Below, one piece after another: positions 2,540-62,655 of a stretch of DNA of 64,000 bases. The notes under the pieces were generated by a model. It was given only the letters and a program-made list of their open reading frames with translations. It was not told where the DNA came from and did no database searches. The stretch's first letter is position 1; each line of letters starts with the position of its first letter. Made by a program: the position numbers and the translations under genes. Source of the DNA: Sabellastarte sp. h YS-2021 (Eukaryota; Annelida; Polychaeta; Sabellida; Sabellidae); NCBI GenBank assembly GCA_964017235.1, contig OZ024928.1, positions 89,399,566-89,463,565 of the forward strand, written 5' to 3'.

Positions 2540-3210
2540 ACAAGAGCACTCAGAGAGCGCAGACCTCCTCCAAGGCAGTTCAGTCCCCCATTGCTGTGTC
2601 TACTCCATAAAATAATTCCTGGGCTTTGAAAACCTACCATTAGCATTGGTATTGTATTTTTTACACTTTGTTCCTTGTCCCATTTCAGACATTTGATGAA
2701 AATTTCATCCAAATCCATCCATAACTTTTTGAGTTATCTTCCTTTAAAAAATACCTGGATCCAGAAGATCCAGACAATGATCCGGATCACACCCAAAATC
2801 TAATCACTTCTTCCTTGTCCCATTTTGGACATGTCCTGAAAATTTCATCGGAATCCGTCCATAACTTTTCGAATTATCTTCCTTTAAAGAATTCAGGGAT
2901 CCAGAAGATCCAGACGGTGATCCAGATCACTTCCAAAATCTGATCACTTCTTCCTTTACCAATTTTTCACATATCCTGAAAATTTCATCAAAATCTCTCC
3001 TTAAGTTTTTGAGCTATCTTTCTTTAAAAATTAAATTTCCGAATCACTCCCAAAATCTAATCACTTCTTCCTTTCACCATTTTGGACATATCCTGAAAAT
3101 TTGATCAAAATCTGTCCATAAGTTTTTGAGTTATCTTTTCACAGACAGACAAACAAACAGACGGACAGACAAACCCAGGCGAAAACATAACCTCCTTGGC
3201 GGAGGTAAAA
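2540..3210 (-). mobile_element. Family F minisatellite element (Helentron/HINE-like)
   Basis: Read on the minus strand, it starts with hairpin ACCTCC-GCCAA-GGAGGT (3,191-3,206), then a GTCTGTCYGT simple repeat, then three to four copies of a ~130-140-bp unit (GATAACTCAAAAACTTATGG box, then CATTTTGGTCAAAGGAAGAAG-like linker). The 3' end carries CCTTGGAGGAGGT (2,563-2,575 on plus), complementary at 12 of 13 positions to the 5' left arm, and ends near GCTCTTG followed by T. No ORF. The plan matches families A-E here; assignment to non-autonomous Helentrons is inferred. Confidence 0.65.
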
Positions 3211-3649
3211 ATCATGGCCTGTGAATCTAACATCTGAAAACATCTTGTGGATTCTGTATACTTCTTACAACTGAAGTTGTTCCTAAAATTTTCCCAAATC
3301 TCAATGTTGTTGTCCATTTAGTTGTACCTGTGGGCTGGGGTTCTTGCCTGCTGAGCCTGGCTATATTTATCAAATATATTGTTCATCTACTTACTGTGTT
3401 GCGGCATATTTTCAGAACTAAAGCTCCTTAGCTGACTGATTAATAGCCAGTTGGATAGTTCAGCTTGAAGTAAATCACTTGTAACTGCAAAATTATTGAA
3501 TTTTGAGTGTTTTTGTGTAACAATATATTCGTTAACTTTTTTTATATACTGTGTCATGGCCAATTTTCAGAGCTGTGTAGTGCCAGAGCTAACTGCAACA
3601 TGTACTTTGACAGTTCACCATTGACTGTCACTTATAACTGCAAAATTGT
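3211..3649. other. Intergenic stretch without recognised features
   Basis: AT-rich DNA between family F and the duplicated region. I see no ORF with family resemblance, no RNA gene and no clear repeat. It lies upstream of the first visible exon of the host gene, so an unseen upstream exon or promoter could be here, but nothing supports one. Confidence 0.4.
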
Positions 3650-5440
3650 TCAATTTAAAGTACCAGTATTTGATTCTTATTTCTTGTCATTTCAACCAGT
3701 GACCGTGATTATTTGCCATTAATAAGAGTTTCAGATATTTGCAATATACATTCACATGGAATCTATTTAGGCAATGTGGAGTAAAGGTTATATATCGGTG
3801 TATTGCTCTTATCAGTGATACCTACATAGTACGTACTGATACCTGATGATCTCTAACTTTCTATATCATAATCTTATATAGATATATGTCTGGTTTCCCC
3901 CACATGTGAAACAACCCTTTTCAGTGAGGTGAAGATGATATTGAATGAGTAAACCTGGCAAATAACACTTGTGTAATCCTACACAGCAACAAATCTGATA
4001 AGTGTAATTAAGTTCCATTTTATAACATCATGTATTGTTATATTTCCATGTGCAACTCCATGTTATATTGTACGTATTTGATTCTTATTTCTTGTCATTT
4101 CAACTACAACAGTGACCTTGATTATTTTGTCATTAAAAGAGTTTCAGATATTTGCAACATACATTCACATGGAATCTATTTAGGCAATGTTGAATAAAGG
4201 TTTTATATCAGTGTATTGCTGTTGTCAGTTGTACCTTCATGGTTTATACTGATACTGGATAATTTCTAACTTTCTTTATCATAGTGTTGTACAGATATAT
4301 GTCTGGTTCCCTCCATATATGAAACAACCCTTTTATGATATTAAATGAGTTAACCTGGCAAATAACACTACACAGCAACAAATCTCTTAAGTGTAATTAA
4401 GTTCCATTTTATAACATCATGTATTGTTATATTTCAGTGTGCAACTCCATGTTATATAGTGTGAACTTGAAAATCTCACATGTTGTAAGTGGAGGTTTCA
4501 TTGACCAATTGGTTGTCCAGTTTGGTATTTAATCACGTAGCTCTTATTTGCAGTTGTTGGCTCAAGTTCATTAATTGGGAACATTGTTTGGTTAACATGG
4601 GCCAAGTAATCTAAGCCTGGCAAATAATCCTACACAGCAACAAATCTCTTAAGTGTAATTAAGTTCCATTTTATAACATCATGTATTGTTATATTTCAGT
4701 GTGCAACTCCATGTTATATAGTGTGAACTTGAAAATCTCACATGTTGTAAGTGGAGGTTTCATTGACCAATTGGTTGTCCAGTTTGGTATTTAATCACGT
4801 AGCTCTTATTTGCAGTTGTTGGCTCAAGTTCATTAATTGGGAACATTGTTTGGTTAACATGGGCCAAGTAATCTAAGCCTGGCAAATAATCCTAAACAGC
4901 AACAAATCTCTTAAGTGAAATTAAGTTCCATTTTATAACATCATGTATTGTTATATTTCAGGTGCAACTCCATGTTATATAGTGTGAACTTGAAAATCTC
5001 ACATGTTGTAAGTGGAGGTTTCAGATATAAGTGGAGGTTTCAGATATATATCTGGTTCCCTCCATATATGGAACAACCCTTTTCAGTGAGCTGAAGATGA
5101 TATTAAATGAGTTAACCTGGCAAATAACACTACACAGCAACAAATGTCTTAAGTGTAATTAAGTTCCACTTTATAACATCATGTGTTGTTATATTTCAGT
5201 GTGCAACTCCATGTTATATAGTGTGAACTTGAAAATCTCACATGTTGTAAGTGGAGGTTTCATTGACCAATTGGTTGTCCAGTTTGGTATTTAATCACGT
5301 GGCTCTTATTTGCAGTTGTTGGCTCAAGTTCATTAATTGGGAACATTGTTTGGTTAACATGGGCCAAGTAATCTAAACTGTTAAATGGAACATAAAATAC
5401 AAAGTTTGACCTTGTAGATGAGGTCAATGTACTACTATTC
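3650..5440 (+). repeat. Tandem duplications with ~262-bp period upstream of host gene
   Basis: A block running from GGCAAATAA..CTACACAGCAACAAAT through GTTAACATGGGCCAAGTAATC recurs at about 4,355, 4,617, 4,880 and 5,117, giving periods near 262 bp (238 for the last). An earlier block starting TTTGATTCTTATTTCTTGTC occurs at about 3,669 and 4,075. Copies are nearly identical over long stretches, so the duplications are recent. The block has no minisatellite hallmark and no ORF. It ends about 150 bp before the first visible exon. Confidence 0.8.
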
Positions 5441-5596
5441 ACATGTATATAACCACTCCCTTTTCACATAAGGTGGGACTGATCATTCTTTTGTAAAGCA
5501 CTGATGAAATTGCTTTTCACAAACCTTTAAAACTAAAGACTATATATAATGTGTAGACTCTGTAATGTATTTGAATGTTTTCTTTATGTTAAACAG

Positions 5597-5682: not shown

Positions 5683-8600
5683 GTGAGTTGAAACATATCT
5701 AGTCTTGTGTAAATGTTACTGGGAGTGGCAAATCTTACAGTTGATTCAATCTGTTTAAACTTTAGAGACGTTACATTTCTTAAAATAATAGAAGTGATTT
5801 GATCCTTTTATTTAATTGAATACATATACATACTATTTATGGGGGTTGGGGGCTTGCCCCCAATTATAACTTCATTTAATTTTAAATTTCCTTAACATTT
5901 TCCTGTAATTATCCAATATGGTGGATCTCGTACTGGTAAAGTAAAATTGCGCCTATTCTATTAAATTTAGATACATGTAGTTTTATTCAAATACCTGCAT
6001 ATTTTGGTTACAGTGTAGAGTCCAATTGGGGATAATAATAATGAAAATATTTTCAGGAAATATTTGTTTTTAAAGTAAGAGAGTATATAATACTGTTGAA
6101 TTATGTCCACCCACTGGGGGGTGGACATATTATTTTTGCTTTTTCCGGCGTCCGGCGTCCCACTTGGTTTCCAGACATTTTAGGCAACAGTTCTTATCCT
6201 ATCTTTACCAAATTTTTCATGCAGGTTTATTGGGTTAATAGCTTGTATGGGATTGCTTTTGGTGATGATAGCTCTATAGCTAACTGAGTAATAGCTACTT
6301 TGCTACTTTTGAGTATCTCTTTGGTTTCCAGACATTTTAAGGAATGCTATTAAGCCTATCTTTCTGAAATTTGGTATGGAGGTTCATTGGGTTAATAGCT
6401 TGTATGGGATTGCTTTTGGGGGTAATTGCTTCATAGATGAGTGAGTAATTAATTAAATAAATGAGTAATTGGCTATTTTTAGTACTGAAAAAGGCAAATG
6501 TGCTCATATCTCCTAAACCATGCGAGATAGAGCGATTTCGTCAAAATTTTCGACCCACAGGGTATCTAAGGAATGTACTCTTTGCAATTATCAAAAGGTT
6601 TTCCCCTCCCCATAAATGGCGGCCATTTTGAATTTTCGAATTTTTGCCAAAATTGGCAAAACACAAATTTGCTTCTATCTCCTTAACCGTGCAAGATAGA
6701 GCGATTTCGTCGAAATTTTCGACCCACAGGGTATCTAAGGAATATAATCTTTGCAATTTTCAAAAAAATTTCCCCTCCCTAGAGCGATTTCGTCGAAATT
6801 TTCGCCCACAGGGTATCTAAGGAATGTAATCTTTGCAGTTTTCAAAAAATTTTCCCCTCCCCAAAAATGGCGGCCATTTTGAATTTTCGAATATTTGCCA
6901 AAAATGGCAAAACACAAATTTGCTTCTATCTCCTTAACCATAGGAGATAGAGCGATTTCGTCAAAATTTTCAACCCACAGGGTATCTGAGCATTGTACTC
7001 TTGGCAATTTTAAAAAAATTTTCCCCTCCCCAAAAATGGCGGCCATTTTGAATTTTCGAATTTTTGCCCAAAATGGCACAACGCAAATTTGCTTCTATCT
7101 CCTTAACCGTGCGAGATAGAGCGATTTCGTCGAAATTTTCGACCCACAGGGTATCTAAGAAATGTAATCTTTGCAATTTTCAAAAAAAATTTTCCCTCCG
7201 CAAAAATGGCAGCCATTTTGAATTTTCGAATTTTTGCCAAAAATGGCAAAACACGATTTTATTGCGTTAATACATCCTATCCAATGGACAATAGCTTATC
7301 CGGTCGGCGCGGACCGGCCCGCCAAATGTCGGAAAAAGGCGTCCTGTGTCTCCACCGGCCAGGCCAGCCCAGTACTGTGCACTCGCCAGATGGCGTGTCG
7401 TACTTCCTTCCTGTCTAGACAGAGTGACGTCATAGCATCTTTTTCGTTTGGCGCATGTACTTGTGACATGGTTTTTTCTGAGAATATATATTTTCAAGTT
7501 TTATGTGAGAACTATTACGTTTTTTGCTTTTAATTTTGTACTAACTATTTCTAGAAGACTTATAGCTCACTATGTCTTCCCAGTCAGCGACAGGGTAGTT
7601 GTCGCCACATGATGGCTGGTTATGATTCTCATACATTTTGTGCACGCTGTCGTGACAAGAAAAAGGGGAAGGACCCTTGTGTAGAGAAGGAAGGGGCGGA
7701 TTGCCTTCATTGTAATGCCCTTACACCAGAACAGTTAGTTCATTTATCTACCCCGTCTTATCAAATCAAGAAGGAGAAGAGGGAATCCAAGTCTTCTACC
7801 CCAGCTAAGAAATCGTCTACAGACTCCACTCTCAGTCCCACCCTTGTAGACCCGTCCTTAGTGACGGTAATGGGGGTTGTGGATGGCCAGAGCACCTCTA
7901 GGTCGCCTGGTTTGAGTGATCAGCCGGTGGAAAAGAAAAAGAAGAAGGAGGACAAGAAGGCTTCCAGTGAAAAGTCGGTTAAAGCTGACAAGTCGGTCAA
8001 ATCTTCATCTCACCGAACCTCATCTACCTCTAGTACCGACCAGAAGTTAGAAGTGATGGAGCAGAAGTGGTCGGACCGTTTAAACCGGTTGGAGGCTCTC
8101 CTCCTCTCCAAATCTTTAGACCGACCTCAAGAGCCTGTGTTTACTACGGTCAAGGTTGCACCTACTCATGCTCCCCCTGCTAGTGTCAGCACTGAACCTT
8201 TTCTGAAACCAACCGACCAGCCTGTTCACCGACCTCCCACCTCTACTCTACCGGCTACCGACCCTGCTAGCTCAGCTACTGCTTCACAGGCCGGATCAGA
8301 TGTATCCCCGCCTTTTCAACCACCAGGAATTTCTAGTGTGTCCGACCGACCTACTGTTAAGAAGCATGTGCCCGGTACCTTGGATGTTACCAGGAAGGAC
8401 ACTTCTTCAAGTGACTCGGATGTGGATAGCATCACCTCCGACCGTCCTCCAGTAGATCTTTTCCCAGAAGAGGGCGAGCTCTCTGATGAACAAGATGTTT
8501 CCCTCACCGACCCGGATCAATCCCTCTCAGAGGAGCAATCCTACAGGGAGACCATGAGGGGCATCCGATCCTATATGGGATGGAGTCACATCCCTGACAT

Positions 8601-10625
8601 GGACTCAGGCACTAAATCATCAGACGACAACCCCTTTGCTGGGCCAAAAATGCAGACACCAGGGAAAGTTTCTGTCGCCTTACCCACGGACGAGTGGTTG
8701 TGTAGCAAACTGAGCAAGCTTAATCTCACCTTAACACAAGGTTATCCCTCACGTACCACTGAGGCAGGCACTCTACAAAGGGACCAGTTTGTCCGGACGG
8801 CCAAGTCGCAGTCAAAATGGTACAGCTTACATTCAGAAGTTAAAACAGACAGTTCTGACTCTCAAGTCCTGGAATACGGGTTCCTCCAGGCTGAACAGTA
8901 CCTACCTGAGAATAGCCCGACAAGCCGGCATCGCCTCTAACCCACCCTTGTCTAGGCCCATATCTCAAGAGAACCTCAGGAAATGGGAAAGGTCGGCCAG
9001 AGAGTCCTCTGTAATATGTAATCAGGCGGCCGGATTTAATCGCTGCCTTCTCAAGGTCCAGCAAAGTATGCAATCCCATCTCAAGACCATCCGGACAGAG
9101 TCAAAGGGCAAGTCGGCCAGTAAAGTTTCAACAGCCACTGACGAGCTGCAGTTTCTACTAGATTTCAACGCTAGTGTGTGCCATGCAATGGCTCGGGCCA
9201 TGGAACACTTGACCAACTTTGTTTTTGTTAATGTAGCAAACACGACCTTAATGAGAAGAGACTCCTACCTGTCTTACCTGAAAGCCGGAGTTAAAGCTGA
9301 CACTTTAAATGCGCTCAGGGCAGCCCCTCTGGATCTGGACACCCTCTTCCCTGATAAGATTGTCAAACAGGCGGAAGAGGATATAGCAGCCCTAGACAGA
9401 AATCGTTCCGGTGTAACGCGAGATAATGACTCCCCTCTATTTCTGACTCCCCTCCTTTGATCTTTTGGGGGAGTCATTATTTGGCAAACAACATTTATCC
9501 CCCCAAACAATAGGATTTAGGGGGGTTAGAATATTGTTTGCAAGATACCCACCCCCCTATTCAGAAACTGACTCCCCTCTATTGTTTCTGCACCTATTCA
9601 GTTGGGGGCAAGTGGGGAGGGGGTGGTCTTTATTGTCTCTTAACTTGTATAGGCTCAAGTACACTTTGAGCTAATCAGTGAGATCTTCATTTCTCTAGCT
9701 CATTTACTTACTGAGGGCAATTGGGGAGGGGTGGTCCATGTTGGTGTTTATCAGGTCAATTGCACTTAGAACAAGGCAGAAATGGAGTCATTTCCAGCTT
9801 TTTTAGTTTAGGTTGATCAAAGGCACACATTCTTTTCTTTGAAATTTTATTTACAAGCAAAAAACATAAACAATATGCTCAGTAATAATTTGATACATAA
9901 ACATAAACAATATGCACAGTAATAATTTGATACATAAAGATAAACAATAAGCACATTAATAATTTGATACATAAAGATAAACAATAAGCACATTAATAAT
10001 TTGATACATTTATGGAAAACACAAATATACACCAGTGCACATTAAATATGAATGGACATTTAGCACTTTAAATACTATTTTAATTAATTCCATATTTAGC
10101 TTACAATTGTGGCATTGACCACCTTTTTAATGGTTTTCTCTGTCTCTTTTTTGTGGCTGGGAAGGGTTTTATGTCTCTGGCTTCAATGTAGGCAATAAAA
10201 TGATTTCTCATTTCTTTTTGGTGAATCCTAAAGTCCTCAGGTTGCTGACCATGACACAAAGCAGTAATAAAAGCTATTGCAAATAGCCCACATTCTTTTA
10301 CACCTAACTGTTGTGTTACATCTGTGGTTATATACTGTCCAAAACTCCCGTAGATATTTTCCAGTACACTAACCGTTTCCTTGATTAGCCCATTTGTGGA
10401 TAGGAAACTATCAAAAATAAACAGTTCACTGTCCATCACAGCACTGGCAATCCAATGGTGCCTGGTCTCCTGGTGGATAAACTGTACACTTGCCACATCT
10501 GTTGATATCTTTTGGCAATGATGTGGGCTTTTGACAAATAGTGTCGACTGTAAGCCATTCATTTTAGGAAATTTCACACAACCCCACCAATATGTTGTTC
10601 AATGACACTCAATTAAGTGGGAAGT

Positions 10626-10660
<35 letters not shown>

Positions 10661-13600
10661 AAAGGGGGAGTCATAATCTTGCAGGGGGGGTCAGAATATT
10701 TCACCCCCCCTTGCAAGATACTGACCCCCCAGTCAGTAATCTAGGGGAGTCATTATCTCGCGCTACACCGGCTCAGTTTACAAGAAGGGTCGATACCACC
10801 CTTATGAGAAACATGACAAGAAGCCGGATAGTTCAAGACAGGATAGGCCGGCTTGGAAGAATATCTCTTCTCATGGCCAACACCGTAGAGGGAAAGGAAA
10901 GTACCAGTACTCCACCCGACCAGCCAAGGGCCAGCAGTCTTATAAATAACAGTCATTGTATAACACTTGTACAGGCAAGGCTGCTGGCCGGAAGCTCCTC
11001 ACAGACAATAGACAATTCTTTAAATGTAAAACCTCTTGTTGTTACAAATGTTCATACTGCGCCCGGGCTTTCACAAAGGAAAGAAATAAGTCTGTTATCA
11101 GAAAGAAAGTACATTAAAATCTGTGAAAAGTGCTTCTTGTGTCATTCCATTGTCTTATGTTCAACCTGTAACAAGTGTCAAAAATGTTGCCTCAAATCTG
11201 CCTGTAGGGGCCAGACTTCAAAACTTTTGGCAAACTTGGCTGGATCTAGGGGCCGGTCCGAAAATAGTTCAAATCCTGAGAGAAGGTTACACCCTTCCCT
11301 TTCGGACCCGGCCAAATCTTACAAGGTCTCCCACTGTCGTAAGCCGTTATGTCAATCCCCACAGGAACAGCTACCTGTTGGAGGCATTACATCAGCTTAT
11401 GGACAAAAATGCAGTAGAACTGGTCCACAATCAAACATCTCTGGGGTTTTTCAATCGACTCTTTCTAGTTCCAAAACCCAACAACAAATGGAGGCCAATA
11501 CTGGATCTAAGCAAACTAAACCTTTTCCTCAAGGTGGAGAAATTCAAAATGGAGACACCGGAAACCATCAGAACATCCCTCCAACAAGGGGAGTGGGTCA
11601 CCTCAGTAGACTTCAAGGATACCTACTTCCACATTCCAATACAGGAACAATCCAGGAAATACCTAAGATTTCATGTCCAGGGCCGGACTTACCAATTCAA
11701 GGCGTTGCCCATTGGTCTGTCCACAGCGCCCATGGAGTTCACTGTTTTAGCAAAAGAGGTGAAACTCATGGCCATACACAAGGGTATAAGAATCCACCAG
11801 TACCTAGACGACTGGTTGGTGAGAGCCAGATCCCAAGAAACTTGTCTCCATCACACCCAAATCCTGGTCAAAATGTGCCAGGACCTCGGTTGGTTGGTGA
11901 ATTTAGAAAAATCAGAGCTGGAACCCAAGCAGGTCTTCGACTTTGTAGGTTACCAGTTCGATCTCAGGTCCGGCCGGGTCAGACCGACCCCGAACCGGTG
12001 GCAAAGCCTTCAGGACAAGATACAAGTACTTCTGTTATTATCGGCCTGTCCGGTCCGACAATTCATGTCCCTGATAGGCCTCCTAACAGCCACAGAGAAA
12101 CAAGTTCACCTCGGCCGACTGCACATGAGACCCCTACAGTGGCATCTCAAAAACAATTGGAGGGTACCAGAATCTCTAGGGAAGATTATCCCTCTCCCAA
12201 GAACCCTGCACCCTCACTTACAATGGTGGCTAGACGAAGACAATGTGCTTCAAGGTCAACCATTACACCCAGTAAGGCATGCTCTGCAGATATTTACAGA
12301 CGCATCAAAAGAAGGGTGGGGCGCTCACTTAAACGAGTCCACTGCAAGAGGATCCTGGTCAGTGCCGGAAAGCAAGCTGCACATAAACTATCTGGAACTC
12401 AAAGCAGTGTTTCTAGCCCTCAAAGAGTTCCAAGACCTCTGTGTAGACAAAATAGTTCTAGTGGCAACCGACAATACTACAGTGGTAGCTTACATAAACA
12501 AGGAAGGAGGCATGAGGTCGGGCCCACTGTGTGCCCTACTGTGGAGAATCTTGACCTGGTGTTCCCAGCGACAAGTGACTCTAAAAGCCCGGCACATCCC
12601 AGGCCATCTAAATGTGATAGCAGACAAGCTATCCAGGCTGGGTCAGACCATGCAAACAGAGTGGTCCCTCCTTCCGGAAGTTTTTCAACAAATATGCAAC
12701 CAATGGCACTGGCCTCAAATAGATCTATTTGCCACGAGGTTCAACCACAAGTTACCTCAGTTTGTCTCTCCAGTACCGGACTCCCTGGCTGTAGCAGTGG
12801 ATGCACTTACTCTGCCATGGGACGATCTGGATGCATACGCCTTCCCACCGACCGCCATATTGGGCAAAGTGGTGGAGAAGCTACTGGACTCCCCGTGCAA
12901 GAGACTTATTCTGATTGCCCCGGGGTGGCCCAACATGCCTTGGTTTTGGGACCTAGTGACCATGTCCAGTCAGGACCCTCTCAGCCTGCCCAACCTGCCC
13001 AGTCTGCTAACACAGCCCTTCAATCAGATCCCTCACAGAAATCTGACAAATCTAAATCTCCATGCCTGGCTCCTAGAGCCACAACAATCAAAGAACAGGG
13101 CTTCTCTGAGGCAGTGGCAGCAAGAATTGAGGCCCCTCAAAGAAGATCTACCAGATCAGTCTATGAGGCAAAGTGGGCCATTTTTACAAAGTGGTGCGTC
13201 ACTAATCAGGTGGACTTCAGGGCACCACCTGTAAAGTCGGTGGCTGACTTCCTAATGTACCTCTTTGAGGACAAGAAGTTACAGCCCAGCACCATTGATG
13301 GATACAGATCTGCCATTGCTGATAAACTAGGTCCTACAAAAGTCAATATCAGCAAAGATGATAATCTCACTCGTCTCCTGGAAAGTTTCCACAGAGATAG
13401 ACCCAAAGGGCGGAGGGGGATTCCCTCCTGGAACCTTTCCCTGGTGCTACACCAGTTGACAAAGGCTCCTTTTGAACCTCTTAGGGAGGCATCTCTGAAG
13501 CACCTGACCTTCAAAACTGTCTTCCTTTTAGCCCTAGGCTCTGGCGAAAGAAGGAGTGAGATCCATGCTTGGCAGCACAAGAACATCAGACACCAATCCG

Positions 13601-16600
13601 ATTGGTCTAAGGTGTCCCTGTTTCCATCTCCCAGCTTTCTTTCCAAGAATCAGCTGGCCAAAGAGGGTCCAGAGAGTGTAGCCCCAGTGGTCATACCAGC
13701 CCTGGCTCCTACTCTAGATAAATCCCTCAAGTCTGACAGATCCTTGTGTCCAGTCAGAGCTTTGCGCTACTATTTGGACAGGACTTCAGACCTCAGACAG
13801 CGCAAGGAGTTAGTTTTTGTCTCCTTCAAGAAAGGCTTCGACAAAGACATCTCCCCTGCCACTATCTCCTCATGGATCAAACAAACTGTGATCCTATGCT
13901 ATGAGCTCTCTGATCAGCAGGCCCACACCCTACATCAAATTAAAGCTCATGATGTCAGGGCCTTTGCGGCTTCTAAGGCCTTCCAGTCTGGAGTCTCCTT
14001 AGAGCAGATCTTAGCAGCCTGCCACTGGAAATCTCATAATACCTTCACCCAATTCTCTCTGAAGGATGTGGCTTGGGCTGACTCAGAGCTCTACCATCTC
14101 GGACCAGTTGTGGCTGCTCAGCAGATCCACCAACAGACTGGTACCTAGAGGAGAGATGTACATATGTAAATACTTGTACATATTTGTATATATTGCACGT
14201 ATAGTTAAGGAATATAAAAAAAAAAAAATCTCACGTACTTCCTCTGGGAGGCTTAATTTATGGGACTGAACTCATCCCTCTCTTCCCCTACCTCCGAGCA
14301 GGTCTGTAAAAAAAGGGGGGGGGGGTAAGGTCGACTCTGACGGTTCCATTCCGGATAACCGGATGATGATATTCGACCATAGCCCTAAGGGTTTAGACTT
14401 CAAGGTCTACCCAGGCTTTAGAAGGCATTGTCGTTATTCCAACATGAGTTCAAGTTTTTTAGTCCCTAGTAACTTACCTGCCTACCAAGCGGTAGTTATT
14501 CAGCTATTGTCCATTGGATAGGATGTATTAACGCAATAAAATTGCAAATTTAATAAGTAAATTAAATTTTTATAAGTTAATACCTTATCCAATGGACACA
14601 CAAGACCCTCCCACCGACCCCGCTATCAGCCTACTAGGGGTCTAATAGGTTTAGACAACGAAAAAGATGCTATGACGTCACTCTGTCTAGACAGGAAGGA
14701 AGTACAACACGCCATCTGGCGAGTGCACAGTACTGGGCCGGCCTGGCCGGTGGAGACACAGGACGTCTTTTTCTGATGTTTGGCGGGCCGGTCCGCGCCG
14801 ACCGGATAAGCTATTGTCCATTGGATAGGGTATTAACTTATAAAAATTTAATTTACTTTTTAAATTTGCAAATTTGCTTCTATCTCCTTAACCGTGCGAG
14901 ATAGAGCGATTTCGTCGAAATTTTCGACCCACAGGGTATCTAAGGAATGTAATCTTTGCTGTTTTCAAAAAAAATTCCCCTCCCCAAAAATGGCGGCCAT
15001 TTTGAATTTTCGAATTTTTGCCAAAAATGGCAAAACGCAAATTTGTTTCTATCTCCTTAACCGTGCGAGATAGAGCGATTTCGTCAAAATTTTCGACCCA
15101 CCGGGTATCTGACCATTGTACTCTTGGCAATTTTTAAAAAATTTTCCCCTCCCCCAAAATGGCTGCCATTTTGAATTTTCGAATTTTTGCCAAAAATGGC
15201 AAAACACGAATTTGCTTCTATCTCCTTAACCATGCGAGATAGAGCGATTTCGTCGAAATTTTCGACCCACAGGGTATCTAAGAAATGTACTCTTGGCAAT
15301 TTTCAAAAAATTTTCCCCTCCCCACATATGGCTGCCATTTTGAATTTTCGAATTTTGGCCAAAAATGGAAAAACACAAATTTGCCTTAACTGTGCAAAAT
15401 AGAGTTATTTCGGTGAAATTTTCGACCCACAGGGTATCTAAGAAATGTACTCTTGGCAATTTTCAAAAAATTTTCCTCTTCCCAAAAATGGCAGCCATTT
15501 TGAATTTTCAAATTTTTGCCAAAAATACAAAAACAGAAATTTGCTTCTATCTTCTTAACAGTGCAAGATAGAGTGATTTCGTCAAAATTTTCGACCCAAC
15601 CAATGCAAAAAGGCATGAAGCTGAAATAATTTACATGTACACTAATAAATATTTAACCATCATTGATATATTTCACAAATGAAACAGGGTCTTGTAAGAC
15701 TACTGTACAATTTTGGCAAAAGGTTCATGGGGTGGACATTACACATGATAATGTGTGTTCTTCTATGCTATCCTGTTTCTATTCATATGTCGCAGCTACT
15801 ATCAACAGGGCATCCTATTTCTAGTTTTGTTTTAGACATTTAGTTATATCATTGGATTATTGATAATACTGCTTGGTATGTTAACAGTGCTCAAGAATTA
15901 TTTGAGACCTTTTGGTCATGGAGAATGAAGGAGTGGCCAGAGTTTGCCACATTTGTTGGCTGCAATGAATTCAACCATCTGCTGAATGACACCTCTTTGG
16001 ATGGATTCAGGAATAGACATGTGAGACAATGATATAGTTAATATATAGACATTTGCTTCTTGTATTGTTTCAGTTTTACAGACATATGATAAAGTACCAA
16101 CTGACAGTTCTAGCATTTGATAACCTGGCTGTACCCATGCAGTTATATGGGTTTAAAGCTTGGTGATGACAATATGTGGGATGCACAGGGCCTGTGTTAA
16201 TATAACCCTATCTGTTTAAAGAAATGTTAAACCCTTATTTTTGACCTTGGCCAGTATTTTATAAAACTGGCTATTGTGAGAAAAAAATTCATTTAAAGTT
16301 GTATTTCCTGCAAATATTTATTGGCCACATATTAAAACAAAAACAGTGAAATCATTACACTTCTCAAACAATTTGGTAATTCACTAGTACATGTATTAGT
16401 TATTTATTGATTATCAAATGAGACTTAAAAATAAATATGCTGTAGTGAAAATGGGAAAAAAGCTGATGTAATGAAATATGAACTTCATAAAAATAAGTAC
16501 ATCATATGTACTTCCTCTACGTGTTGAAATTACAGGAGAAAGGTCTGGAGTTTCTGGCTCATTGTGAGAGGTTGCTACAAAAAGGAGGGTTGGGAGAACA

Positions 16601-19600
16601 GAACACATTGAATGTTCAGCTTTTGCGAGAAGACCTCCGAGTTTTCACAGATGGCTACAAATTCCAGGGGCAAGTTTGCTTTTAAAAGTAATATTCTCTG
16701 TAAACCTTTCCAGGTTAAATGGTCCGAACTGTTGGTAAACAGATAAAAGAAAAAAGGTTTTTAGGCGGGTTGCGTGTAACCAACCAGCCTATTAGATTGA
16801 TGTGTCCGACGTCCGTCTGTCCGTCTGTCTGTCTGTCCGTCTGTCCGTCCACATTTTTCGTTTCCGGACTCTAACTTTAAAACGGTTTGACCAATCAAAT
16901 TCAAACTTCACAGGGAGATAGATCACCATCATAGCTAGGTTCCTTTCGAAATTGGTGAAATTCCGTGTGTTCGTTTGTCCGTTTTTCGTCCGTTTGTCTG
17001 TCCATCCATCTGTTTGTCCACATTTTCGTTTCCGGACTCTAACTTTAAAACGGTTTGACCAATCAAATTCAAACTTCACAGGGAGATAGATCACCATCAT
17101 AGCTAGGTTCCTTTCGAAATTGGTGAAATTCCGTGTGTTCGTTTGTCCGTTTTTCGTCCGTTTGTCTGTCCATCCATCTGTTTGTCCACATTTTCGTTTC
17201 CGGACTCTAACTTTAAAACGGTTTGACCAATCAAATTCAAACTTCACAGGGAGATAGATCACCATCATAGCTAGGTTCCTTTCGAAATTGGTGAAATTCC
17301 GTATGTTTGTTTGTCCATTTTTCCGTCCGTTTCTTCGATTTTGTCCGTTTTTCTGTCCATCCATCTGTCCGTCCACATTTTTGTTTCCGGACTCTAACTC
17401 GAAAACGGTTACTCCAATCTAATTCAAACTTCACAGGGACATACATCACCATCATAGCTAGGTTCCTTTCGAAATTGGTGTAAATCCGTCCGTTCATTTG
17501 TCTTGTTTTTCTGTCCATTTGTTCGTTTTTAGGCGGGTTGCGTGTAACCAACCCGCCTATTAGATTGATGTGTCCGACGTCCGTCTGTCCGTCCACATTT
17601 TCCATTTCCGGACTCTAACTTGAAAACGGTTTGACCAATCAAATTCAAACTTGACAGGGACATAGATCAACATGATAGCTAGGTTCCTTTCGATATTGGA
17701 GAAATTCTGTCCGTTTGTTTGTCCGTTTTTCGTCCGTATGTCTGTCCATCCGTCTGTTTGTCCACATTTTCGTTTCCGGACTCTAACTCGAACACATTTA
17801 CCTTAAGTGGGTAACCTAACATTTCTTTCCTTGTTCCTAAATTTAATGAGAGCAGTTGCTAACCTTGTTTCCTGCGTGCGCAACCCGCCTTTTGGGGCAC
17901 CTCTGACCCTCTTGTTTAAAATTTTTGTAATAAAACATTTATAATGATTAAAATTAACAATATTTTATTTTGATTTAATTAAAATTAATAGTTTTTTCAT
18001 CTTGGCATTAAAACTTTTGTTCATTTTTTGTCTAGTTTCTTTTGATTCAGTTTCTTTGTAGAAAATCTTGTTTTAATTTATATCACCATTAATATATATC
18101 TGAGTTTAATACCTGACAGATTACCAAAATTTCCTAAAAATCTATTATCTTCTATATCTCAGAAACCATAAGGTGTAGTAAGTTGATACATGGTAGGAAC
18201 ATTGGTTGGGTTTGTAGGTATCCCCTTTGTGTGACCCTGGATTGCTGCAACTGATTATTGTGTGTACTTCTACCTATTTTTTCTAAATCCGTTGACAGCA
18301 ATATTTGAATTAAGAAATAGATCACTTAATAAATTTTGCAGCTTTATAACTTTAGTTATAGGGGCATCTCTGATGGTATGTCTTTTTACTTCAACCATGA
18401 AACAAAAGAATTTACCAGTATCAGGAAAATAACTCCATGACCAGGTGGTTAAAAATAGTGTTATTTGACCACTCAACCTCTGGTCATTGGTTTGAAACCA
18501 GCTGAGGATAACACATGGGACGCGCTGGGGATCTTCTCTTATTATGACCTTAAGCTCTTGAAAAGAAAGTAGAAGTCCAACCTTGACATTTGTGCATTTC
18601 CAGAGTTCTTACATTTACAGGTATTTGTACCCAGTGACATATCAAGAAGGAATACAGATTGACTTTGAACAGTTGTCATCTTGGGTTACCTTCAAGACAG
18701 TGAAAGACTATGAAAACTATCTCACCAGAATGAAGGCAATTCCTAACAGGGTATGTATTGTAAGATGATAAAATAATTAATCAAATGCACCATTCCACCA
18801 AAATGAAAGTGACGAATATCGGGGACTAAGGACGTGGGAGCATGCGCAGAACATAGCTGTGTAGTATAGACTGGTTCCCGAGGAAAATATTTCGTTTGAA
18901 ATATTCGGGTTGGTCATTGATGTTTGCTCATGCCAACATACAGCAATAGTGAGGATAAGGTGAGGATAAGGTAAGTATTTAACTTAGAAAAAGTTAAATT
19001 ACAATAAAATTTTTACAATTTGTGTACTTCTACAAAAAAAAATTAAAATGCCTGATTATTTCAAGGAAGTTATTAAAAGCATCAAAGCTATTTACATAAT
19101 ACATTAAACATTAAAAACAGAAGTCCATTTATATATATTCCCAATGAACCCCCATGCAAGTTAGCTATCAGACATAATATTTGTGTACGTTTATAAAAAC
19201 AATTAAAATTCCTGACTGGTGGAGAAAAATTTTACATTAAAAACAAAAGCCCATTTTCCCCTTCCCCTCCACTCTACCTGTGGAGCTTGTGTTGGGGGCT
19301 GTTTATGTCTATTCACCAGGTCAATTCACTTGCAGATTGCCTCTGACATAGTGGTAATGAAGGAAGGTGTAAAGCTGGGCAAAATGCCTCACATGCATTC
19401 TCTGGTAAGCTAACAAATATTTGTTCTTCTACTCATTGTTGTGCTAAGCTACTAAAACATGTTTATAGTAACATTTAGAACTGGAGTCTTTTTGGTTGGA
19501 TATATAAAACTAATGCCAAATTAAAAAGTATACGAGTAGTTAAGTTTACCAAATGGTTTATTGCCAATTTATTTGTTGTTTGTCTTTTTACAAATTGTCG

Positions 19601-48363: not shown

Positions 48364-49620
48364 GTAAACCTTCTGTCCACAGTTTTCATTGGATAGTCAG
48401 CATGTTTGAACACATCAGATTGGTTAAAAGTTTGAAGATTCTGGTTGTATTCTGGTCTCATGTTGCCATTAACATAGAGAGTGATGTGATGGTACATGTT
48501 AAGCATAGGTTACTGAAATATTTGGGAAAAATAATGGACTTTTCATGATTAATTGAGTTCAGTTCTGTGAATTATGAGCAAAACTGGGAAAAATTGTGTT
48601 GACCAAAAATCTATCCAATATTGTAACAGGTGGCAGTTGAGATGTAAATGGTGCTTATGATCTTATACGTGAAATAATGGACTTATTTGATTGTGGGTTA
48701 TATGTCTACTGTACTAACCTGAAATTGGCAAAGCTTAAAAACTATATATAGTTGAATGTTGTGATATATTCACATGCTTCTTGTATTATGTGCCCAAACA
48801 GCAGGACCATAAATTTTTTCTTAGTATATATTTACAGACAAGACCCTTCAGTCAGAAAGTCGAAGAGATTTTGTAAAACTTCTCTGCTATAAATTTAGTG
48901 TTCAGTCAATTATTGAAGATGTTAGTTATCTCATTTGGCTTAACTTACATAAAATGCATTAATATGTGTGTCCCCAAAAAGATAAACACCGTAATTGTCT
49001 TAAAACACCTCAGCAGGCAGGGCTTCAGTTGGTGCCAGGCATGTATTAGTAATATGTATGTTGTTTTGAATGTGGATAACCATTGAATGTATACATTAAA
49101 CAATTGAATGTATAGATTCAATAGACAAATCATTCAATGTGTATATTTAGTGGCTAAGCTGTCAAATGTATAGACTCAATGGCTACAATGGCAAGAAAAA
49201 TACATGTGTTTACTTTCTGGACGAAAAACCATTTGGATTTTTTTTAACCAATTTCATATGAGCAATGAAATGTGAATGTTAAATTCTATTGTATAATGAA
49301 TAAAGATACTTTGTTGAATCTGTATTTTCAATTATGGAACTTTGTGAAAGGAAATCTGAAATGAATATATTACAGTTCATGATTTTTTACTTGTATTGTT
49401 TTAACAGTTTTATAGCCTCTTCAAAGAAAATACGATATACTAATGTACACGAGAATCCATATTTTTGTTTATAGTTTTATTCTGAAATGGAATGGCAAGA
49501 GATTGTATTTCATGAAAATATTGTGTGAAAATATTCTGGGAATATGGGCAACACATGAACAGAGAAACTCATGATAACCAACTGAAACCACAAATAAAAA
49601 TTGCTAAAGTATACAGATAA
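48364..49620 (+). other. Probable 3' UTR and downstream DNA of the DUF885 gene
   Basis: AT-rich, no repeats recognised and no other gene. Candidate poly(A) signals AATAAA occur overlapping the stop (48,353) and at 49,299-49,304. The second would give a 3' UTR of about 0.95 kb. Which is used cannot be told from sequence. Confidence 0.4.
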
Positions 49621-51463
49621 TTAAGCGTCCCTGAAAGGGCGCTTATTTGTTTTCGCCTCAGTTTCCTCGCCGCCGCCGCCGCATTATGGTCTCCCTTGAA
49701 TATCTCCCTTATTATTAGAAGGTTTCAAACCATATTTGGCAGTTATATACCTTAGGCGTGGGAAAATTTTTCTGCATGCTTAAATTTGACCTTTGACCTT
49801 TATGAAGGTCACATGATCAAAAACTATTTTTTGAAGTACACCCCCCGTCATCACAGTTCAGGAAAAACTACTTGCTACAGAGCCTTATAATTTGACACAC
49901 CTGTTCATACTAATGAAAATGCGAGCTGATTAGATTTTGGGAGCAATCCCTTGAAAAATGTCTCATTTATGAGTGATTTTGTGACACCTTCCAATCTGAA
50001 AGCCTTAAATTTAGGCCAACCCCCCTATTATCTTCTTAAGTATTGCATTTGGAGCTATAAAATGTACTGGGAGGTAATAGGAAACCATATGTGGAGAGTC
50101 TAAATAGCCGGTCAGTTTTACCCCACGGCCCCCCCTTATGGGTCAAACTGGGGTCATAAAATAGCTGATTTTGAGTTTTTGCCTTATATCTCCTTTATTG
50201 TTGCTTTTATAGCTTCAGAATGTATTAAGAGGTATTGGGAAAGCATATATGGAGAGTCTAAATAGCCGGTCAGTTTTACCCCCCGACCACCCCTTATGGG
50301 TCAAACTGGGGTCATAAAATAGCCGATTTTGAGTTTTTGCCTTTATCTCCTTGATTGTTGCTTTTATAGCTTCAGAATATATTAAGAGATATTAGGAAAG
50401 CGTATGTGGAGAGTCTAAATAGCCGGTCAGTTTTACCCCCCGACCCCCCCTTATGGGCCAAACTGGGGCCATAAATAGCTGCTTTGGAGTTTTTGCCTAT
50501 ATCTCCTTTATTGTTGCTTTTATAGCTTCAGAATGTATTAAGAGGTAGTGGGAAAGCATATGTGGAGAATCTAAATAGCCGGTCAGTTTATCCCCCAACC
50601 CCCCCCTTATGGGTCAAACTGGGGTCATAAAATAGTTGCTTTGGAGTTTTGCCTTATATCTTCTTTATTGTTGCTTTTATACCTTCAAAATGTATTAAGA
50701 GGTATTGGGAAAGCATATGTGGAGAGTCTAAATAGCCGGTCAGTTTTAACACCCCCCCCCCCCCCCCCTTATGGGTCAAACTGGGGTCATAAAATAGCTG
50801 ATTTTGAGTTTTTGCCTTATATCTCCTTTATTGTTGCTTTTATAGCTTCAGAATGTATTAAGAGGTATGGAGAAAGAATATGAGGAGAGTCGTAATAGCC
50901 GGTCAGTTTTACCCCCCGACCCCCCTCCCCTTATGGGCCAAACTGGGGTCATAAATAGCTGCTTTGGAGTTTTTGCCTTATATCTCCTTTATCGTTGCTT
51001 TTATAGCTTCAGAATGTATTAAGAGGTATTGGGAAAGCATATGTGGAGAATCTAAATAGCCGGTCAGTTTTATCCCCCGACCCCCCTTTATGGGTCAAAC
51101 TGGGGTCATAAAATAGTTGCTTTGGAGTTTTGCCTTATATCTCCTTTATTGTTGCTTTTAGACCTTCAGAATGTATTAAGAGGTATTGGGAAAGCATATG
51201 TGGAGAGTCTAAATAGCCGGTCAGTTTTACCCCCCGACCCTCCCTTATGGGCCAAACTGGGGTCATAAATAGCTGCATTGGAGTTTTTACCTTATATCTC
51301 CTTTATTGTTGCTTTTATAGCTTCAGAATGTATTAAGAGGTATTGGGAAAGCATACGGTGCAGCTTTGTGCATTCTTAGCTTTACAGCATGCTTATTAAA
51401 ACCACAAAGCATTTTAAACTTTAAGGGACGCTTCGCTTTTGTTAGCAAAAGCATTCCTCTAGT
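49621..51463 (+). mobile_element. Family C minisatellite element
   Basis: Left arm AAGCGTCCCT (49,623-49,632) and imperfect inverse AGGGCGCTT (49,636-49,644), then CGCCGCCGCCGC. About eight units of ~157 bp follow (AATAGCCGGTCAGTTTTACC, TATGGGTCAAACTGGGGTCA, TATATCTCCTTTATTGTTGC). The 3' arm AGGGACGCTT (51,424-51,433) is a perfect inverse of the left arm. A hairpin GCTTTTG-TTAG-CAAAAGC (51,435-51,452) stands six bases before CTAG (51,459-51,462) and T. Hairpin plus CTAG is the classic Helitron 3' end. No ORF. Confidence 0.82.
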
Positions 51464-51472: not shown

Positions 51473-53180
51473 GTTTTTACCCCACAGCCCTTAAGGGCTG
51501 TCGGGGTATTGTTTTCACCCATGGTGTCCGGATGGGCGGGCGGGCGTCCTGTCGGGTGGGCGGGAAAAAGTTTGTCCGGGCTGTATCTCAGAAACCGTAA
51601 GGTGTAGGAAGTTGATACTTGGTAGGGACATTGGTTAGGGGGTGTAGGTGTGCAACGTCATGGTCTGACCTTGATTTGACCTTTGACCTTTCCGTAGTGA
51701 CCCTTACCTATAAAATCTTGTCCGGGCTATATCTCGGAAAGTGTAAGGTGTAGGAAGTTGATACTTGGTAGGGACATTGGTTAGGTGGTGTAGTTGTGCA
51801 ACGTCATGGTCTGACCTTGATTTGACCTTTGACCTTGCCGTAGTGACCTTGACCTATAAAATCTTGTCCGGGCTATATCTCGGAAACTGTAAGGTGTAGG
51901 AAGTTGATACTTGGTAGGGTTATTGGTTAGGGGGTGTAGTTGTGCAACGTCATGGTGTGACCTTGATTTGACCTTTGACCTTGCCGTAGTGAACTTGACC
52001 TATAAAATCTTGTCCGGGCTATATCTCAGAAACCGTAAGGTGTAGGAAGTTGATATTTGGCAGGGACATTGGTTAGGGGGTATAGGTGTGCAACGTCATG
52101 GTCTGATCAGGATTTGACCTTTGACCTTGCCGTAGTGACCTTGACCTATAAAATCTTGTCCGGGCTATATCTCGGAAACTGTAAGGTGTAGGAAGTTGAT
52201 ACTTGGTAGGGTTATTGGTTAGGGGGTGTAGTTGTGCAATGTCATGGTGTGACCTTGATTTGACCTTTGACCTTGCCATAGTGAACTTGACCTATATAAT
52301 CTTGTCCAGGCTATATCTCAGAAACCGTAAGGTGTAGGAAGTTGATATTTGGCAGGGACATTGGTTAGGGGGTATAGGTGTGCAACGTCATGGTCTGATC
52401 AGGATTTGACCTTGCTGTAGTGACCTTGACCTATAAAATCTTGTCCAGGCTATATCTCGGAAACCGTAAGGTGTAGGAAGTTGATACTTAGTAGAGACAT
52501 TGGTTAGGGGGTGTAGTTGTGCAACGTCATGATCTGACCTTGATTTGACCTTTGACCTTGCCGTAGTGACTTTGACCTATAAAATCTTGTCCGGGCTAGA
52601 TCTCGGAAACCGTAAGGTGTAGGAAGTTGATACTTGGTAGGGACATTGGTCAGGGGCCATAGGTGTGTATTATCATGGTGTGACCTTAATTTGACCTTTG
52701 ACCTTGTCGTAGTGACCTTGACCTTTAAAATGTTGTTGCACCTTTGGGTCTGTCTTTTGATGCAGATTAAGCACTGTTAATTCATATTGGAATTTATTAA
52801 GAATTTTACTTTCATAACTTCCCATTGTAAGAGATAGAATTTCATCAAGTGAGCCACAGATTTTGCTCTCCAACACCACACATAAGCGTTCATTAAATGT
52901 ATTACCACTTCTGTATGAAGAATGTTATAAAGAATGTTGAATTTTAGTTTACTGATTAATGCTGTCATCTTGTTATTGAATTGACTTGTTTTAATACTTC
53001 ATCTTTACATGTATTATCTTTCTTTTAAACATTATTTTCTGCATTTAAACATTTTTTGGAACTTTATATAACTGACAGTGCTCTGAAAGTATCCTGAACT
53101 TTGTACTGGTACAGTGCTTCTGTATCTCATGGTGTTGGGGCTGTGGGGTACGGGCATCTCTGATGCTATTTTCTTTTAGC
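51473..53180 (+). mobile_element. Family B minisatellite element B1
   Basis: Left arm TACCCCACAGCCC within palindrome ACAGCCCTTAAGGGCTGT, then GC-rich GGGCGGGCGGGCG. About eight units of 146 bp follow (CTTGTCCGGGCTATATCTCG, AAACCGTAAGGTGTAGGAAG, TTGACCTTTGACCTTGCCG). A unique 3' part contains GGGCTGTGGGGTA (53,138-53,150), a perfect inverse of the left arm. It starts ten bases after family C ends. No ORF. Confidence 0.78.
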
Positions 53181-55560: not shown

Positions 55561-55689
55561 TCACATTCTGCTTACAGTCTAACACTGTAGCTGATACAGT
55601 TTTTAGATAATCCACTTTTCCTTCAGATACAAAACACAGTAAAGCTTACCTTCTGCTTACAGTCTCATACCACAACTACTATAGCTTTA

Positions 55690-55736: not shown

Positions 55737-55739
55737 TTT

Positions 55740-59740: not shown

Positions 59741-59751
59741 TGTATCTATAC

Positions 59752-59900: not shown

Positions 59901-60355
59901 AAATTGTTGGACATATATTGCCGAGTGCCAACCTTTTGATATTCCAAGATATAATTATATATTGTGAGAAAAACTTCAAAAGTCCATTGACCAATTGTAC
60001 TCCTTTTAGATTAACCATTGGCTAATTATTGAATAATCTTTTTTATTTGGACCTTAGAAGTCCCAGGTAAAGACATGAAACAAGAATGATAAATCTGGAA
60101 CCACATTAAACTTTGGCGTTTTATCATGTTTTATTTTCATTGAAGGACAAAGAAGATTCAATAAATGAATCAGTTCTGTATCATATACATATAAAATATA
60201 AAGTGAGATTCACAGCAAAATCTCAAAAAATAAATGAAAACCTTGAGAAACTTCTACTAATTCCCAAAGACGTCCATACTGATGATGGCCAACAAAAATA
60301 ATGAAGTAAACAATGTGGTCATGTGACCTAATTGGCGGGAGGACGGACTACTGTA

Positions 60356-60424
60356 ACCCAATGGCTTGGTTAAGGTTGTTACATAACCTTAAAATCGCAT
60401 CTCTGCGTTGGCCATTGGGTTGGA
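60356..60424. repeat. Nested inverted repeats
   Basis: AACCCAATGGC and GCCATTGGGTT form the outer arms, and AAGGTTGT.ACATAACCTT is an inner hairpin. May mark a small MITE or structured transcript; nothing more can be said. Confidence 0.5.
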
Positions 60425-60536
60425 TGGCTCCAACAAATAGCTACTGTTAGGAAATGGTAAGGGTATTTCGCTATAAAAAGAGGTTTGTAATATATCTGAG
60501 ACCATAAAAACCCCAAGAGCTCTGTATATATTTCAT

Positions 60537-60905
60537 TACATCCCCAGAGAAAAGTCTGGGATATACTGGTTTCACCATCAACATTTTGACTTGTGTGCGT
60601 GATAACTCACAAATGCTTTCATGGAATTGCATTCAAACTTGGCACACACATGTATTTGAGTTAGGGGAAGAACCCTATTTTAAGGTGACCTTAAACTCCT
60701 AATAATAAAGAATTTATGGCCACCTTAGGGTCAGAAATTTGACTTTTAACCACTTAATGTCCTCTGCATCAAAAACTATGTTGTCATCTGGCTAAAATTT
60801 ACCAGGAAACACATTAAGATATATTCTTTTTATATATGCCAAAAATCAAGACTTCATGTTAAGGTTAAAATTGTGTTTGAGGCGTATAAAGACCCTACTT
60901 ATACA
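60537..60905 (+). mobile_element. Family E 5' fragment E4
   Basis: TACATCCCCAGAGAAAAGTC / TGGGATATACTGG is the E hairpin, followed by GTGATAACTCACAAATGCTT, CAAACTTGGCACACACATG and TAAGGTGACCTTAAACTCC, collinear with 26,950-27,270 of E1. It is cut at 60,905 by family B element B2. Confidence 0.75.
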
Positions 60906-62655
60906 TTTTTACCCCACAGCCCTTAAGGGCTGTCGGGGTATTGTTTTCACCCATGGTGTCCGGATGGGCGGGTGGGCGGGCAGCTGGAAATAGTTTGTCC
61001 GGGCTGTATCTCAGAAACCGTAAGGTGTAGGAAGTTCATACTTGGCAGGGACATTGGTTGGGGGGTGTAGGTGTGCAACGTCATGGTCTGACCTTGATTT
61101 GACCTTGCCGCAGTGACCTTGAGTTTGAAAATCTTGTCCAGGCTATATCTCGGCAACCATAAGGTGTAGGAAGTTGATACTTGGCAGGGACATTAGTTAA
61201 GGGTTGTAGGTGTGCAACGTCATGGTCTGACCTTGATTTGACCTTTGACCTTGCTGTAGTGACCTTGACCTATAAAATCTTGTCCGGGCTATATCTCGGA
61301 AACTGTAAGGTGTAGGAAGTTGATACTTGGTAGGGACATTGGTTAGGGGGTGTAGGTGTGCAACGTCATGGTCTGACCTTGATTTGACCTTGCCGTAGTG
61401 ACCTTGACCTATAAAATCTTGTCCGGGCTATATCTCGGAAACCGTAAGGTGTAGGAAGTTGATACTTGGTAGGGACATTGGTTAGGGGGTGAAGGTGTGC
61501 AACATCATGGTGCGACCTTGATTTAACCTTTGACCTTGCCGTAGTAACATTTACCTATAAAATCTTGTCCGGGCTATATCTCGGCAATTGTAAGGTGTAG
61601 GAAGTTCATACTTGGTAGGGACATTGGTTAGGGGGTGTAGGTGTGCAATGTCATGGTGTGACCTTGATTTGACCTTTGACCTTGCCATACTGACCTTGAT
61701 CTAAAAAATCTTGTCCAGGCTATATCTCGGAAACCGTAAGGTGTAGGAAGTTGATACTTGGTAGGGACATTGGTTAGGGGTGTAGGTATGCAACATCATG
61801 GTGTGACCTTGATTTGACCTTTGACCTTGCTGTTGTGACCTTGATCTATAAAATCTTGTCCGGGCTATATCTCAGACACGGTAAGGTGTAGGAAGTTGAT
61901 ACTTGACAGGGACATTGGTGGGGAATTGTAGGTGTGCAACGTCATGGTGTGACCTTGATTTGACCTTTGACCTCGCCATAGTGACCTTGACCTTTAAAAT
62001 CTTGTCCAGGCTATATCTTGGAAATGGTAAGGTGTAGCAAGTTGATACTTAGTAGGGACATTGGTTCGGGGGTTTAGGTGTGCATCTTGGTGTGACCTTG
62101 ATTTGACCTTTGACCTTGCCGTAGTGACCTTGACTATAAAATCTTGTCTGGGCTATTTCTTGGATTCCATAAGGTGTAGAAGGTTGACACTTGGTAGGGA
62201 CATTGGTTTGGGGGTGTATGAAAATGTATGTGTGCATCATGGTGTGACCTTTTTTGCTCTGCAAAAGTGTGTTCAGCTGCCATATTTGAGACATCTTTCT
62301 CTTATGACAAGGATATATGGATTGCTGCAATTGATTATTATATGCACTTTTACATAATTATGCTATTTGCATTGACAGCTATTCTCCAAGTAATAAATTT
62401 ACAGCTTCATATTTTTAGTTTAATGATTAGTGCTGTCATCTTGCTGTTGAATTGTCTTGTTTTAGTATTTTATCTTTACATATAGTTTCTTTCTCTTCGA
62501 TGTTATTTTCTCTACTTAAACATTATTTGGACCTTTATATAAGTGTCACTGCGCTGAAAGTATTCTGGCCTTTGTACTGTTTCACTACTTCTATATGTCA
62601 TGGTGTTGAAAACTATTTTCCCAGGCTGTGGCGTACGGGCATCATCTTCTTCAAG
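60906..62655 (+). mobile_element. Family B minisatellite element B2
   Basis: Same 5' hairpin as B1 (TACCCCACAGCCC, AAGGGCTGTCGGGGTA), GC-rich GGGCGGGTGGGCGGGC, and about eight units of ~146 bp. The 3' unique part, with GGATTGCTGCAATTGATTAT, matches the 18.2-kb B fragment, and its later section matches B1. The 3' arm GGCTGTGGCGTA (about 62,624) has one mismatch to the left arm. It appears inserted in E4. Confidence 0.78.

Follow-up and report, generated by a model that had tools for sequence, protein, structure and literature searches.

The stretch of DNA analysed here, hereafter the window, comprises 64,000 nt from the sabellid annelid Sabellastarte sp. h YS-2021 (assembly GCA_964017235.1, contig OZ024928.1, positions 89,399,566 to 89,463,565) and contains copies of six families of repetitive elements, designated A to F. 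These are very probably non-autonomous rolling-circle elements of the Helentron/Helitron2 type (HINEs). In each family a left arm at the 5′ end can pair either with a close internal arm, forming a 5′ hairpin, or with a distal arm near the 3′ end. Taken as a whole, HINE identity combined with a switch of the left arm from its internal to its distal partner is probably the best explanation of the observations.

All coordinates are those of the window, with the strand given for each element. The family F element is a whole HINE on the minus strand (2541–3208), with its 5′ end at 3208 and its 3′ end, CTCTTG, at 2541. Its left arm (3208–3194, with ACCTCC at 3206–3201) overlaps the internal arm GGAGGT (3195–3190), giving a 5′ hairpin (3190–3208) with a 6-bp stem; the distal arm lies at 2563–2575. 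All the other elements are on the plus strand. Family A is present in three copies, each ending in CTAG followed by TT. Copy 1 (6101–15824) has a tandem array broken by foreign DNA (approximately 7256–14868), a 5′ hairpin of 11 bp at 6102–6129 (left arm 6102–6112, internal arm 6119–6129) and the distal arm GGGGTGGACAT at 15729–15739. Copy 2 (20800–26519) carries a 169-bp array at 21267–26301, and copy 3 (26526–31299) is split by a nested family E element (26875–30144); the corresponding stretch of A without the E insertion is found at 6436 in copy 1. A diverged A-type 3′ end, perhaps old or derived from a related family, lies at 46259. The E element has a 12-bp 5′ hairpin with a bulged A in the left arm (26876–26904; left arm 26876–26888, internal arm 26893–26904) and an exact 12-bp distal arm (30107–30118).

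The family D element (16758–17914, with the 3′ end CTCTTG at 17914) has two tandem 5′ ends and an exact 12-bp distal arm (17879–17890). The two pairings reported for it in the initial annotation hold for the second 5′ end, whose hairpin is a perfect 11 bp (17530–17559; left arm 17530–17542, internal arm 17549–17559); the hairpin of the first (16762–16794) has a mutated internal arm. Two tandem 5′ ends approximately 600–800 bp apart are frequent in D elements, as seen in the window (16758–17542), in coding locus L137 and in several neighbouring pairs among the listed genome matches. Family C (49619–51462, ending in CTCTAG and followed by TT) has a 10-bp 5′ hairpin with a bulged T in the left arm (49622–49645) and an exact 10-bp distal arm (51424–51433). 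Family B occurs twice. Copy 1 (51474–53170, ends approximate because the boundaries are T-rich) has a 13-bp 5′ hairpin with an extra C in the internal arm (51478–51508) and a 13-bp distal arm (53138–53150); copy 2 (60906–62650) has its hairpin at 60910–60940 and a decayed distal arm at about 62624–62635. A solitary B-type 3′ end (GGGCTGTGGGTACAGGCATG...) lies at 31384–31410, with no matching 5′ end nearby. The arms of B, C, D and E quoted in the initial annotation are present where it had placed them.

Inverted repeats might arise by chance in repetitive DNA, and the arrangement was therefore scanned for by a strict rule, namely a stem of 10 or more pairs containing no more than one defect and, 150–6500 bases downstream, an exact GC-rich complement of 10 bases to its left arm. 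Seven places on the plus strand of the window follow this three-arm rule (two D, two A, and one each of E, C and B), and the two on the minus strand correspond to A and D palindromes already counted, read in reverse. Among 60 second-order Markov simulations, in which one strand was scanned, 58 gave no match and two gave one match each. The rule does not capture A copy 1, B copy 2 or F, owing to a distal arm that is too distant, decay and too short a stem, respectively. Short inverted repeats are common, and a looser scan separates the window from shuffled sequence less sharply (15 merged plus-strand matches versus 6, 3 and 3 in three shuffles), yet the stricter scan and the recurrence of the same ends in thousands of copies make chance exceedingly improbable; for A to E it is refuted by the simulations, and for F the case rests on its family copies. 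The three-arm arrangement in the window is more than chance, and the plan first described from this DNA is real.

The abundance of the ends was determined across the 1.786-Gb assembly with anchors placed just behind each hairpin and allowing up to three mismatches; all counts are lower bounds. The 5′ ends were found at least 23,378 times for B, 9,438 for A, 8,538 for E, 5,502 for D, 5,373 for C and 2,402 for F, with 0 to 4 matches for reversed-pattern controls. The left arm of B alone has at least 13,902 exact occurrences (control, 10). The 3′ ends of E (at least 8,429) are similar in number to its 5′ ends, and for 39 of 50 listed E 5′ ends a 3′ end follows on the same strand within 8 kb downstream, mostly at about 3.2 kb, with three others having one on the wrong side; this pairing indicates that E is largely a full-length family of fairly uniform size. 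Among the fetched loci, a search for further families of 10-bp hairpins shared by at least two loci returned only B, C, D and E and one chance-like hairpin.

The end anatomy matches that of known Helentrons and HINEs, in agreement with the Helentron-like identity suggested at the outset. Helentrons and HINEs carry, near the 5′ end, a subterminal inverted repeat (subTIR) of 11–15 bp that recurs in inverse orientation close to the 3′ end; here it measures 10–13 bp, C being 1 bp short of 11. An inverted repeat (IR) complementary to the 5′ subTIR, or a palindromic subTIR, occurs in all six families. Tandem arrays are present in all six window families, and a microsatellite-like GTCC-, GTCT- or GCC-rich stretch lies behind each hairpin. 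A 3′ palindrome past the 3′ subTIR was recognised by eye rather than scored against a null. Insertion at TT or T-rich sites without target duplication is seen in one empty site and in the 5′ flanks, and the asymmetrical terminal inverted repeat (ATIR) with 5′ and 3′ hairpins that typifies Helitron2 is found as well. The canonical Helitron1 (5′ TC, 3′ CTRR, insertion between A and T, no 5′ hairpin) does not fit: although CTAG stands at the 3′ end of A, C and E, all six families carry 5′ hairpins and begin with T(T)A instead of TC.

The three-arm end plan is accordingly known anatomy and not new, having been described in oyster, Drosophila, mite and alga (PMC7492417; PMC2374699; PMC4067079; PMC3627910). 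The closest likeness is to Cg_HINE of the Pacific oyster, which also combines a 5′ subTIR, a nearby complementary IR, a GTCY-type microsatellite, a satellite-DNA-like array, a 3′ subTIR and a 3′ palindrome, with several families of unlike sequence in one species and T-rich targets (PMC7492417). It differs in host, a bivalve, and in sequence, and the accessible sections of that report describe neither a bulge nor a comparison of internal with distal strength. DINE-1 of Drosophila shares 13-bp subTIRs, an IR described as 'partial and/or interrupted' beside the 5′ one, a 3′ stem-loop, a GTCY microsatellite, TT targets and Helentron partners, but it forms one related group across flies, and its internal-arm flaw is described, not quantified, in the portions available (PMC2374699; PMC4067079). 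In Helitron2 the 5′ ATIR likewise forms a 5′ hairpin and the 3′ ATIR lies upstream of a hairpin; its proteins lack the endonuclease present in the coding locus of family D, and the accessible text mentions no bulge (PMC3627910). The fungal FoHeli1 and FoHeli2 of Fusarium have a 12-bp inverted repeat, a short 5′ hairpin and the target TNAT, as in A, C, E and F, with the figure legend giving TNAT followed by T and the main text TNAT followed by A (PMC5148889).

An autonomous element carrying Rep, helicase and endonuclease and having the ends of family D exists in this genome. Helitron_like_N was matched at 24 places genome-wide, of which six were examined further. At C3:168.67 Mb and C2:137.36 Mb the 5′ and 3′ ends of D flank the gene, and at C4:41.57 Mb the D 3′ end is present. 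At the C3 locus, DUF6570, Helitron_like_N, PIF1 and an Exo_endo_phos match lie in one frame (1719 aa as read, within an open frame of 2245 aa). The last 60 bp of the window D element are identical (60/60) to those of three coding loci. According to Thomas et al., 11 identical bp of subTIR define a family and 80% identity over the last 60 bp a subfamily (PMC4067079), and by this rule the shared ends make the window D element a HINE of this Helentron. The Exo_endo_phos match, although weak, would place D with the Helentrons rather than with Helitron2. Two further Rep places (L138 and L141) showed none of the six ends in the 2.5-kb 3′ stretches fetched, at the threshold used. The sixth, C11:69.2 Mb, encodes a D-like protein interrupted by an E element.

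This last place (C11:69208214) was considered as the autonomous partner of E and rejected. The 3′ end of E seen at this place is that of an ordinary E copy inserted into a D-type coding element: some 3.2 kb upstream, 398 of the 401 positions of one stretch match the tandem array of the window E element, the second half of the D-type protein resumes downstream, and the sequence past the CTAG of E continues as in uninterrupted loci. In addition, 15 of 31 listed D-type protein matches, which are spread over contigs C1, C2, C3, C4, C5, C6, C11 and C14, start at residue 937–938 and reach the end of the protein with approximately 98% identity, thereby covering helicase and endonuclease without Rep, and 11 of the 15 are free of stops. 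These matches point to a shortened derivative that recurs and keeps its frame conserved.

The six families had been described as unrelated in sequence, which overstates the case. Their arms, arrays and 3′ hairpins are indeed distinct, yet each of the six hairpin regions opens with T(T)A and closes with TA, followed in five by TT (TG in F), ahead of the stretch rich in GTCC, GTCT or GCC. At the 3′ end, A, C and E have CTAG before TT (19 of 20 copies in E), and D and F have CTCTTG before T in copies with a clear end, D having TT in four of five. The 5′ flanks, which could be aligned for 14 of 20 A, 25 of 30 B, 16 of 20 D, 9 of 12 F and all E and C rows, show T-N-A before the TT of the element in A (T in 11/14, A in 14/14), C (12/12 for both), E (30/30 and 26/30) and F (8/9 and 7/9), and T runs in B and D. 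The one empty site, that of E in A, places the insertion before TT with no target duplication. TNAT is also the reported target of FoHeli1 and FoHeli2 (PMC5148889). The existence of two target classes, T-N-A-T in A, C, E and F and T runs in B and D, makes it unlikely that one shared Helitron-like protein serves all six families, as had been suggested.

Further details of the internal arm were obtained from family samples of 12 to 30 copies each, taken as exact anchor matches early on contig C1 from lists sorted by mismatch and then by position. The initial annotation regarded a bulged internal hairpin with a perfect distal arm as recurring across the six families. This holds for three of them, B, C and E; A and D have perfect stems and F a short one. 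In B, 16 of 30 sampled copies have an intact internal arm with one inserted base (C in 10, T in 6), 14 are otherwise changed and none is unbulged, the unbulged 28-mer occurring at no fewer than 10 sites genome-wide. All 30 sampled E copies are bulged, 28 of them identical across both arms and the loop, and the exact unbulged form occurs at one site in the genome. The bulge is therefore family-wide in B and E and not private to the window copies. All 12 C copies are also bulged, in a sample that is not independent because the search anchor spanned the bulge site. The internal stem of D is a perfect 11 bp in 12 of 20 copies, with most other variants resembling CpG decay, and that of A is a perfect 12 bp in 10 of 20, four of the 20 having no A left arm.

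A family-wide bulge could be a recognition mark, the unpaired base of the 5′ hairpin being read by the Rep protein much as E. coli TnpA-REP reads REP hairpins. That enzyme, another HUH enzyme, is reported to need the bulge of the REP hairpin, a regular stem abolishing activity (PMC8266576), and the constancy in B and E agrees with such a role. Nevertheless, the stems are perfect in A and in D, the latter being the family with a known Helentron, and both the bulged base and its side vary (A in the left arm of E, T in the left arm of C, and C or T in the internal arm of B), so that this explanation is improbable.

The family pairings of the distal arm amount to 11 bp in A, 12 in B, 10 in C, 12 in D, 12 in E and 13 in F. 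In B, all 11 distinct other copies have A immediately ahead of GGCTGTGGGGTA, giving a family pairing of 12 bp that is otherwise exact in 10 of the 11; the perfect 13-bp match is private to window copy 1, and the arm of copy 2 is decayed. The distal arm of C was recognised in 8 of 12 loci, exact in three and with one CpG-type change in five, and that of E is exact in 19 of 20. In F, the window copy indeed pairs over 6 bp internally and at 12 of 13 positions distally, but its mismatch is private, since the pairing base is present in each of the seven other copies whose 3′ end can be recognised; three of these seven have the full 13-bp match, and 5 of 12 fetched F copies have no recognisable 3′ end. 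The distal arms of A and D are known from incidental matches (six for A, namely three in the window, two elsewhere and one diverged; five for D, one decayed). That of D is exact in the window and in the three Rep loci and decayed in one other copy, and the 11-bp pairing of A, with a T:T mismatch at its outer end in the family consensus, is common to the three window copies and two elsewhere and differs in the diverged sixth at 46259.

Helix strengths calculated from DNA nearest-neighbour parameters favour the distal over the internal pairing in five of the six families (B, C, D, E and F). The better rule is that of a weaker internal hairpin, which is a more general regularity than the bulge and fits both the bulged and the short cases. 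Reports on other systems point the same way: the IRs of oyster HINEs measure 7–12 bp against 11–12 bp for the subTIRs (PMC7492417), those of DINE-1 are partial or interrupted (PMC2374699), and FoHeli elements have short 5′ hairpins against 12-bp repeats (PMC5148889). No measurement of internal versus distal strength in Helentron ends was found in the open-access literature searched, and the tendency of the internal pairing to be weaker may be new. Furthermore, the outermost T:A pair is formed only in the internal hairpin in A, C, D and E, in both folds in B and in neither in F.

When the left arms are compared with the partners of all families, the own-family assignment gives the best sum among all 720 permutations, for distal and for internal arms alike. 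From one family to another, both partners change together with the left arm. Such pairing of sequences alone cannot separate alternative folds from binding sites on duplex DNA, with the left and distal arms as inverted copies of one transposase site and the internal arm as a third, relaxed copy at altered spacing. The better conserved distal complements in five families are what inverted binding sites predict. On the other hand, the internal arm adjoins the left arm and is nearly fully complementary to it across families with quite different arms, and in E it is fixed in one bulged form (30 of 30), more than a relaxed copy requires. Duplex sites without an alternative fold are, on this evidence, somewhat unlikely.

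The switch of the left arm between partners offers a mechanism for these regularities. In the single strand displaced by rolling-circle replication, the left arm would first fold with the close internal arm and so mark the 5′ end. On arrival at the 3′ end, the distal arm, in most families the stronger partner, would displace the internal arm and open the 5′ hairpin, and the pairing of left and distal arms would hold both ends close to each other for the second cleavage and their joining, along the lines suggested by Bao and Jurka. The internal hairpin would be kept weaker in more than one way, by the bulge in B, C and E and by a shorter stem in D and F. Bao and Jurka (2013) had proposed that pairing of the 5′ and 3′ ATIRs destroys the 5′ hairpin and sets the endpoint of replication, and compensatory changes are reported in two related Helitron2 elements (PMC3627910). 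The alternative folds suggested for the window are thus an idea already published; what stands of the suggestion is that both partners follow the left arm between families, with the bulge confined to three of six and A giving a tie. Judged from the sequences, this end-pairing switch is offered tentatively, as a possibility to which slightly less than even weight is given.

Several observations weigh against it or against the broader Helentron assignment. Family A, for which the initial annotation noted that both arms pair, departs from the claimed pattern in having an internal hairpin at least as strong as its distal pairing (−14.8 versus −14.5), so that a stronger distal arm is not universal, and five families out of six are statistically weak support. 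The Exo_endo_phos match in locus L081 falls just below the Pfam cut-off (22.0 versus 24.5 bits). Whereas D has an autonomous partner with the same ends, the surroundings of the 6 of 24 Rep places examined revealed none for A, B, C, E or F. Finally, the covariation of arms evident between families is not repeated within them, where no compensatory changes were seen. Covariation within family C was considered and rejected: five copies have a changed distal arm, by single-sided CpG-type changes, and an unchanged left arm, and the sole copy with a changed left arm (L070) keeps its distal arm. Neutral decay of copies after insertion would give no covariation within families, and this result neither supports nor refutes a function.

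Outside the six families, tandem arrays at 4354–5023 (262-bp units) and 33918–34496 (131-bp units) are 97–98% alike and were assigned to none of them. The foreign DNA that splits the array of A copy 1 (7256–14868) contains a 1161-aa stop-to-stop frame (10663–14148) with a weak Phage_integrase match below the cut-off and a minus-strand frame (10101–10598) that matches Peptidase_C48 above it; it is perhaps a tyrosine-recombinase transposon.

To our knowledge, the recognition and rejoining of Helentron-type ends have not been settled by experiment. A bolder proposal, speculative and on the whole unlikely, is that selection keeps the internal hairpin of Helentron-type elements slightly weaker than the distal pairing, through either a fixed one-base bulge or a reduced stem length. 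Synthesis of the 3′ end would then trigger strand exchange, a single-strand DNA switch timing the end of rolling-circle transposition. If this were true, strand exchange in A, C, D and E would, in addition, release the terminal T at the cut site. The plan is standard for HINEs, and the present families are of value for their testability rather than as a new kind of element: six high-copy families with different arms, together with coding loci for one of them, provide ready substrates for testing the published end-pairing switch.

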